Below are positions 3,498 to 36,969 of a stretch of DNA of 43,891 bases, in pieces. The stretch lies in contig CADCVE010000030.1 in assembly GCA_902806065.1 (NCBI GenBank), forward strand, positions 1-43,891, read 5' to 3'. Position 1 is the first letter of the stretch. Every line of letters starts with the position of its first letter. The notes under the pieces were generated by a model. It saw only the letters and a program-made list of their open reading frames with translations. It had not been told where the DNA came from and did not search any database. The DNA comes from an uncultured Rubrobacteraceae bacterium. GTDB taxonomy: Bacteria > Actinomycetota > Rubrobacteria > Rubrobacterales > Rubrobacteraceae. The position numbers and the translations under genes were made by a program.

Positions 3498-4433
3498 TCA
3501 GTCGACCAGTTCTCCCAACGAGCGATATAGAATTCCGAAGAACGTCTCTCTGTCCAACTCCAGCGCCACCTCGGCATTTGGCGTCTTGCCCCACACTCCA
3601 CGCAGGTCGCAGACGGTCTCACCACGAGTCAACTCGCTCTCGCACTCTATCTCCACCCGCATCGGGTGAGTCTCCAGTACCGCCGGCTCCACTACCGCCG
3701 CCACGGCTACCGCGTCGTGGATAGGAGGATCGCCGGACCCGAAGACCTTTCTGTAATCGTCCGAGGAGAAGGTCACTAGGTCAGCCGTCACCTCCCCTAT
3801 CCGGCCCAGAGTACGCAGACGTTCGACCTCTTTCGGTCCTGTGGTTGCCTGGCGTGTGACGTCGAGGCCGACCATCGTGATCCGAAGCCCACTCTCGAAG
3901 ACCACCCGCGCGGCCTCCGGGTCCACGTAGACGTTGAACTCCGCCGCGGGCGTCGTGTTGCCCGGTCCAATGCTACCGCCCATCAAGACGATTCTGTCTA
4001 TGTTCTCTTTGAGGCGCGGATACTCCGCGAGGAACGTGGCGATATTGGTGAGCGGCCCCGTCGGGATGAGCGTGACCGGCTCCGCGGATGCCTCCACAAC
4101 GTCAGCCATAAGCTCTACGGCCCCGCGCCGGTCTATGCTAAAGGTAGGCTCCGCGAGTTTGACGCCGTCTAGCCCGCTCTCGCCGTGGACGTCCTCAGCT
4201 GTGCGCAACGCACGGGCGAGAGGCGCTTCGGCGCCTGCCCCTACCGGTATGTCCTCACGGCCGATCAGGGAGAGAACTTGCAACGCGTTCCTGGTGGTCT
4301 TGTCCAACGGCACGTTCCCCGCGACCGTCGTTACCGCACGCACCGCCAGCTCCGGCGCGCCGCACGCCAGCATCAGAGCTACAGCGTCGTCGTGGCCGGG
4401 GTCTACGTCCAGAAGGACGGGCGTCACGGTCAT
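3498..4433 (-). CDS. Inosine-uridine preferring nucleoside hydrolase
   Basis: A 311-residue member of the IUNH family, which hydrolyses the N-glycosidic bond of ribonucleosides to free base and ribose in purine/pyrimidine salvage. The start ATG at 4431-4433 gives MTVTPVLLDVDPGHDDAVAL, with the DxDxGxDD calcium-binding motif in its normal place at residues 9-16. Other family landmarks are T-V-A-G-N near 42, the I-P-T-G-P-L-T-N-I-A block near 127, LMGG, AEFNVYVDPEAA (Asn and Asp ligands of the ribose pocket), and PPIHDAVAVA, which has the catalytic His and the last Asp. The frame stays open far upstream of the ATG across the divergently transcribed acyl-CoA synthetase gene, but that part is not coding. 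A truncated copy of its C-terminus lies at 2047-2202. Confidence 0.93.
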   Translation of the reverse strand: MTVTPVLLDVDPGHDDAVALMLACGAPELAVRAVTTVAGNVPLDKTTRNALQVLSLIGREDIPVGAGAEAPLARALRTAEDVHGESGLDGVKLAEPTFSIDRRGAVELMADVVEASAEPVTLIPTGPLTNIATFLAEYPRLKENIDRIVLMGGSIGPGNTTPAAEFNVYVDPEAARVVFESGLRITMVGLDVTRQATTGPKEVERLRTLGRIGEVTADLVTFSSDDYRKVFGSGDPPIHDAVAVAAVVEPAVLETHPMRVEIECESELTRGETVCDLRGVWGKTPNAEVALELDRETFFGILYRSLGELVD

Positions 4434-36432: not shown

Positions 36433-36828
36433 TTACGGGCACTCTCCGGGATGCTGCTTACAGTAAGGCTTGTCGCCGGGGAGCTTGCCGCGAACGGCGG
36501 CGATAAAGGCGTAGCCGAGGTCCTGTAGCTGCCGGATACCAGGTAGCTCGTACAGGAGCAGCGGCAGCGCCACGCCGGTAGCGACAGCCAGGGAGGCGTT
36601 GATCGCCCCGGCTCCGCGGTAGCGTTTGCCGTCGGGTGATACGGCCCACGCGGCCGCCTCGCATTGCTCGGTGCTCAGTCCGGCCGAGGCGGGTATGCCG
36701 GGCTTCTGGTAGGGCTCCGCCGACACGCGGCGGCCACGGTCGAGCCTCTTGACGAGGCGCGCCGACCACGTTCAAAACCCTCACGCACCGTCGAAGATCA
36801 GGGTCAGTCTCTGTGGCAACGCGGCCAA
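36433..36828 (-). CDS. DCC-family (DUF393) thiol-disulfide oxidoreductase with two in-frame TGA codons: candidate selenoprotein
   Basis: Read from TTG at 36828 (GGGAG 7 bases upstream), the frame gives M-A-A-L-P-Q-R-L-T-L-I-F-D-G-A, TGA (36781-36783), G-F, TGA (36772-36774), T-W-S-A-R-L-V-K-R-L-D, and continues in one frame to TAG or TGA-free coding sequence that ends at 36433. The part after the TGAs is a normal DCC-family body: WAVSPDGKRYRGAGAIN, LPLLLYELPGIRQLQDLGYAF, and a Cys-rich tail YCKQHPGECP. In this family the N-terminus is D-G-x-C-G-F-C, and both cysteines fall exactly on the two TGAs. With TGA read as selenocysteine the protein is 131 residues, the usual family length. If TGA stops translation, only a headless fragment from a GTG at 36726 remains. 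TGA is an ordinary stop elsewhere in this window. Either a Sec-Gly-Phe-Sec protein or, less likely, a double nonsense mutant. Confidence 0.75.
36735..36770 (-). promoter_or_regulatory. Candidate bacterial SECIS hairpin
   Basis: Directly after the second TGA the RNA can fold into a lower stem of about 8 pairs with two G-U pairs (centre GGTCG at 36763-36767 with CGACC at 36738-36742), an internal loop of 5 and 2 bases, an upper stem CCTC/GAGG, and an apical loop GTCAA (36749-36753). The loop begins with G-U, as in the SelB-binding SECIS of E. coli, and lies 19 bases after the second TGA and 28 after the first. That range is what bacterial SECIS elements use. The hairpin lies inside the coding sequence, as in bacteria. 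Confidence 0.6.
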
Positions 36829-36969
36829 GGCTCCGCTCCCTTCTTTCTGGCTCTCTGGAACCCTACCATTACGCGCCCCGGCCCATGCAAGCATTCAATG
36901 TCTGAACCCGGGGCAAGGAGCGAGGTGATCGACCTCGAACTGTCTTGGCAGGCTGGTAATAGTACCGTA

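Follow-up and report, generated by a model that had tools for sequence, protein, structure and literature searches.

Active sites with two selenocysteine (Sec, U) residues are known from a few bacterial protein families. The Prx-like thiol:disulfide oxidoreductases (PF00578) are bacterial redox selenoproteins with one or two Sec in a UxxC or UxxU arrangement, and UxxU is also found in a metal-binding/putative mercuric reductase family (NF041115) and in the FmdB-family (PMC13188914). A 2026 table of 119 prokaryotic selenoprotein families lists UxxU in these families and has no PF04134 entry (PMC13188914). Five selenoproteins are already known in Rubrobacter xylanophilus (PMC1794560). No PF04134, DUF393 or DCC-family selenoprotein was found in a library of open-licence full text, and none is mentioned in the deep-Sep paper. 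No function of the DCC family was found in the literature searches.

The locus compared here with these systems lies in a window of 43,891 nucleotides, the whole stretch of DNA analysed, from an uncultured Rubrobacteraceae bacterium whose genome assembly is 3.75 Mb and 95% complete. Its features are as follows.

36433..36828, minus strand: DCC1-like (PF04134) selenoprotein gene running from a TTG start to a TAA stop, its product 131 aa long and including two predicted Sec.
36833..36844, minus strand: probable ribosome-binding site GAAGGGAG just 5′ of the TTG start; relatives have purine-rich leaders in the corresponding position.
36781..36783, minus strand: TGA codon 16, first redox position, predicted Sec16, TGA in 12/12 Rubrobacteraceae homologues.
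36772..36774, minus strand: TGA codon 19, second redox position, predicted Sec19, TGA in 10/12 homologues and TGC in two.
36730..36769, minus strand: predicted bacterial SECIS hairpin with the apical loop GUCAA at 36749-36753.
36436..36465, minus strand: C-terminal tail in which two Cys are conserved (PYCxQxPxEC), a possible second redox pair as judged from the alignment.

The two TGA codons share one frame with the TTG start (36828) and the TAA stop (36433-36435) and are the sole in-frame stops before the end of the gene. They fall exactly at the two redox cysteines of the DxxCxxC motif of PF04134, which here reads D-G-A-TGA-G-F-TGA, and their positions agree to the base with those given in the original prediction. 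That prediction had also described a full family body around the motif without frameshift, and this was borne out by the translation in which TGA is taken as C, which matches PF04134 (E 7.9e-14, 53.3 bits; curated cut-off 27.8 bits) over profile positions 1-112 of 113. The other Sec-containing clades described below score 64-72 bits. From the first in-frame start after the TGAs only 97 residues are left, as had been foreseen. The TTG start aligns with the ATG of four relatives (L004, L007, L010 and L077), and the only promoter-like match near the gene is located on the opposite strand.

PF04134 was the only Pfam family matched by the window protein, which resembles the DCC1-like thiol-disulfide oxidoreductases in its full-length profile match, in the position of DxxCxxC and in size. 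The AlphaFold model (pLDDT 88.4) has the order of first strand, motif and helix of thioredoxin-like folds, as in PF04134 proteins; compared with the PDB it gave nothing at E <= 0.001, just weak thioredoxin-like and PieE-type matches. Unlike described DCC1-like proteins, both motif cysteines are predicted Sec and the window clade has the additional conserved C-terminal Cys pair. The predicted UxxU active site is shared with the Prx-like proteins of PF00578, a separate family, and the presence of two Sec in a UxxU motif with NF041115 and the FmdB-family, the domains of which are unrelated. No NCBIfam model matched the window protein, and for five relatives none was over the cut-off, the two weak matches (PrdB and TrbB) being far below it.

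Among 39 genomes of the class Rubrobacteria, 12 hold the gene, namely the source genome of the window and eleven others with 58-75% identity; two close homologues (L019 and L020) are located in Rubrobacter MAGs. The motif is UxxU in ten of the 12 and UxxC in two (G007 and G008; TGA then TGC), and CxxC was found in none of them. The two UxxC members nest inside UxxU members in the tree, which suggests that they have lost the second Sec. The in-frame TGA codons of the window gene aligned with conserved Cys of homologues. Beyond the class, in a sample of 396 Actinomycetota genomes, all other homologues with the motif read are CxxC, except that of G315, in which L105 reads DGGUGLU and the genome has SelB; this adds one more actinobacterial family with UxxU. 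TGA flags raised in the phylum search for G102, G323 and G228 were discarded, as the proteins concerned have a CxxC motif and the TGAs lie close to their C-termini. Homologues were found in 120 of 400 Chloroflexota genomes, of which 22 have a match with an internal TGA, and these 22 Sec loci comprise 13 UxxU, 5 UxxC and 4 CxxU; two further Chloroflexota loci that were read (L155 and L156) are CxxC. The exchange between TGA and the Cys codons TGC or TGT that the original prediction had proposed to look for was found at both positions, in the UxxC and CxxU forms.

In a tree of 70 rows, the resolution of which is limited by 129 alignment columns, Sec forms occur in at least three places among CxxC relatives. 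One is the Rubrobacteraceae and another a large clade of Chloroflexota in which every one of the four motif states occurs; a third, marked by WDG..APSPPMTP, has members in both phyla. Six changes between CxxC and Sec states were obtained, four of them forced by starred branches.

The published rules for bacterial SECIS elements are an apical loop of 3-9 nt with G in its first two positions, a distance of 16-37 nt from the TGA and an MFE <= -7.5 (PMC13188914). The window hairpin lies within all of these bounds, with -21.9 kcal/mol and its loop at a distance of 18 nt from the second TGA and 27 nt from the first one. A strict hairpin of this kind was found in 11 of the 12 class members and in L105. 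In the closest relative (L002) no hairpin with G in the first two loop positions was found, the loop there being AUC. In most class members the loop starts 16-18 nt past the second site, so that both codons are within reach of one hairpin. Compared with synonymous recodings of the same peptide, the Sec forms of the Rubrobacteraceae and L105 are more stable (mean z -2.34) and the Cys homologues are not (z -0.25; Sec versus Cys, Mann-Whitney p 5e-5), the sequences being akin so that shuffles and p values overstate independence. L105 taken alone is no more stable than its own recodings (z -0.58). In the class alignment 82.8% of the positions counted were paired, against 31-45% when the structure was slid. 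For nine Chloroflexota sequences together with the window and L076, 98.2% of the cells pair and three of five pairs are changed on both sides, which is supporting and not independent evidence since the nine rows were picked for sharing the 5-nt-loop register of the window. The lowest-energy strict hairpin in several Chloroflexota members has its loop outside positions 29-33.

In the single-TGA forms the position of the hairpin is much the same, 25-27 nt from a first-site TGA in most and 17 nt from a second-site TGA, which fits one element that would serve whichever codon is present or, in UxxU, the pair. The strongest competitor to this reading is a selenoprotein in which one TGA alone is decoded efficiently, yielding mostly truncated product or sites of unequal importance. 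The single hairpin stands 16-18 nt from the second codon and 25-27 nt from the first, and either site alone can be kept, as the UxxC and CxxU forms demonstrate. On the other hand UxxU outnumbers the other Sec forms in each of the two phyla (10/12 and 13/22), an outcome not easily accounted for by failing double insertion, and we consider efficient decoding of just one codon unlikely.

The genome of the window was also searched for the Sec machinery, as the original prediction had recommended, and selA, selB, selC and selD are all present. The first three form a cluster on contig C94, the tRNA-Sec having the anticodon UCA.

L034, 6288-7700: SelA.
L034, 7693-9537: SelB.
L034, 9567-9656: tRNA-Sec(UCA).

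The SelA and SelB genes overlap by a few bases and the tRNA-Sec follows about 30 nt further on; SelA was identified from its sequence and position, without a family search. An Rfam RF00031 search of this genome gave no match, and neither did its controls. SelD (L072) has a Sec TGA of its own in a GUASK motif. The organism is therefore equipped to make Sec. SelD and the window protein would depend on the same decoding machinery, SelD being a different enzyme with one Sec in a UxxK motif. A short SECIS-like hairpin with the loop GGA lies about 20 nt past the TGA of SelD. Some MAGs carrying the DCC gene had no SelB above the cut-off (G006, G007, G624 and G858), plausibly through incompleteness (G006 77% and G007 75% complete). 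SelB is present in 20 of 22 Chloroflexota genomes with Sec forms and in 21 of 23 with CxxC forms. Its co-occurrence therefore cannot tell the two apart and was dropped as a test, SelB being common across the whole sample.

Alignment alone cannot separate Cys from Sec at a TGA, and in principle a suppressor tRNA or a reassigned code could place Cys or Trp at the two codons. Such decoding is very improbable given a canonical tRNA-Sec with SelA, SelB and SelD, and a hairpin that conforms to the SECIS model. Ordinary genes in the same window end at TGA, at 3498 and 32201 as the original prediction had pointed out, and TGA is therefore not simply reassigned.

That TGA is a normal stop here would suit a dead DCC gene with two nonsense mutations, and one Chloroflexales relative (L021; one TGA, two TAG) does look decayed. 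Chance double nonsense, already thought very unlikely at the outset, is excluded because nine further Rubrobacteraceae genomes, with proteins 58-75% identical, have TGA at both of these codons. The relatives were found to be intact and not scattered pseudogenes, and the codons re-read in independent assemblies, in place of resequencing, were the same TGAs. Apart from the two codons the frame is uninterrupted and purifying selection acts on it, dN being below dS in 10 of 10 pairs both for the whole gene (for example 0.10 versus 0.68 and 0.15 versus 0.75) and for the portion after the TGAs, with the 15 codons before the TGAs too few for separate judgement. With ten class genomes sharing the two TGAs and no other in-frame stop, with UxxC and CxxU forms in existence and with the gene kept although its neighbours vary among most lineages, a pseudogene is scarcely credible. 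The suggestion that there is no gene in this frame, the reading being a GC-rich accident and the true gene lying antisense or in the 97-aa ORF after the TGAs, draws on long overlapping ORFs on both strands and can be dismissed, since the PF04134 match starts before the TGAs and spans them, the residues ahead of and between them are conserved in all relatives in the alignment and conservation is mostly lower in the antisense frames than in the sense frame.

The selenocysteine reading was supported, and of the refuting conditions proposed with it none that could be checked spoke against it. We consider it very probable that the gene encodes a DCC-family selenoprotein in which both cysteines of DxxCxxC are replaced by Sec (U-G-F-U), with both UGAs served by one SECIS and with probable diselenol/diselenide cycling. 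In the proposed mechanism, tRNA-Sec and SelB would read both UGA codons, directed by the one SECIS hairpin just downstream and within the permitted distance of each. The product would then probably cycle between diselenol and diselenide while exchanging electrons with a substrate, and the conserved C-terminal Cys pair may reload the active site. The family name and the motif point to a redox role, and the likeliest one is that of a reducing dithiol/diselenol oxidoreductase. A diselenide is more reducing and more resistant to oxidation than a disulfide, and this would suit a reducing function in aerobes exposed to oxidants. For the wider family, we lean towards Cys-to-Sec replacement at both active-site positions in at least three lineages, giving the series UxxU, UxxC, CxxU and CxxC, with one nearly fixed SECIS serving UGAs 9 nt apart.

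Apparently this is an undescribed bacterial selenoprotein family, found in dozens of Actinomycetota and Chloroflexota genomes and mostly with two predicted Sec. It would add to the bacterial selenoproteome of these phyla a family that standard gene prediction would truncate or overlook, and would offer a handle on DCC-family function. The four motif states together with the one hairpin would make a ready test of a single SECIS directing two Sec 9 nt apart, and the same natural series a test of what the second Sec contributes at a redox site.

The gene neighbours vary among most lineages, being NAD synthase and GNAT in the window and HTTM, UbiA and isocitrate lyase elsewhere, and therefore provide no operon argument for function; the neighbourhood was dropped as a clue. 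In L007 the DCC selenoprotein gene is immediately preceded by an HTTM-domain gene (110-1489), and the partial ORF upstream in L077 is 66% identical.

A few Chloroflexota loci are recorded separately. The decayed-looking copy in the Chloroflexales MAG (L021, 2966-3355) has CGFC intact, one TGA just past the motif and two in-frame TAG, and looks either decayed or badly assembled, though its genome has SelB. The very divergent UxxC form of L173 (YDGGUPFC) sits on a long branch and could represent either one more origin of Sec or a spurious match. The genome G925 has two DCC genes, one CxxC (L156) and one UxxU (L160). The reverse CxxU motif (YDGECxFU) is found in a Chloroflexota clade (L163, L167, L170 and L172) in which the hairpin loop lies 17 nt past the TGA.
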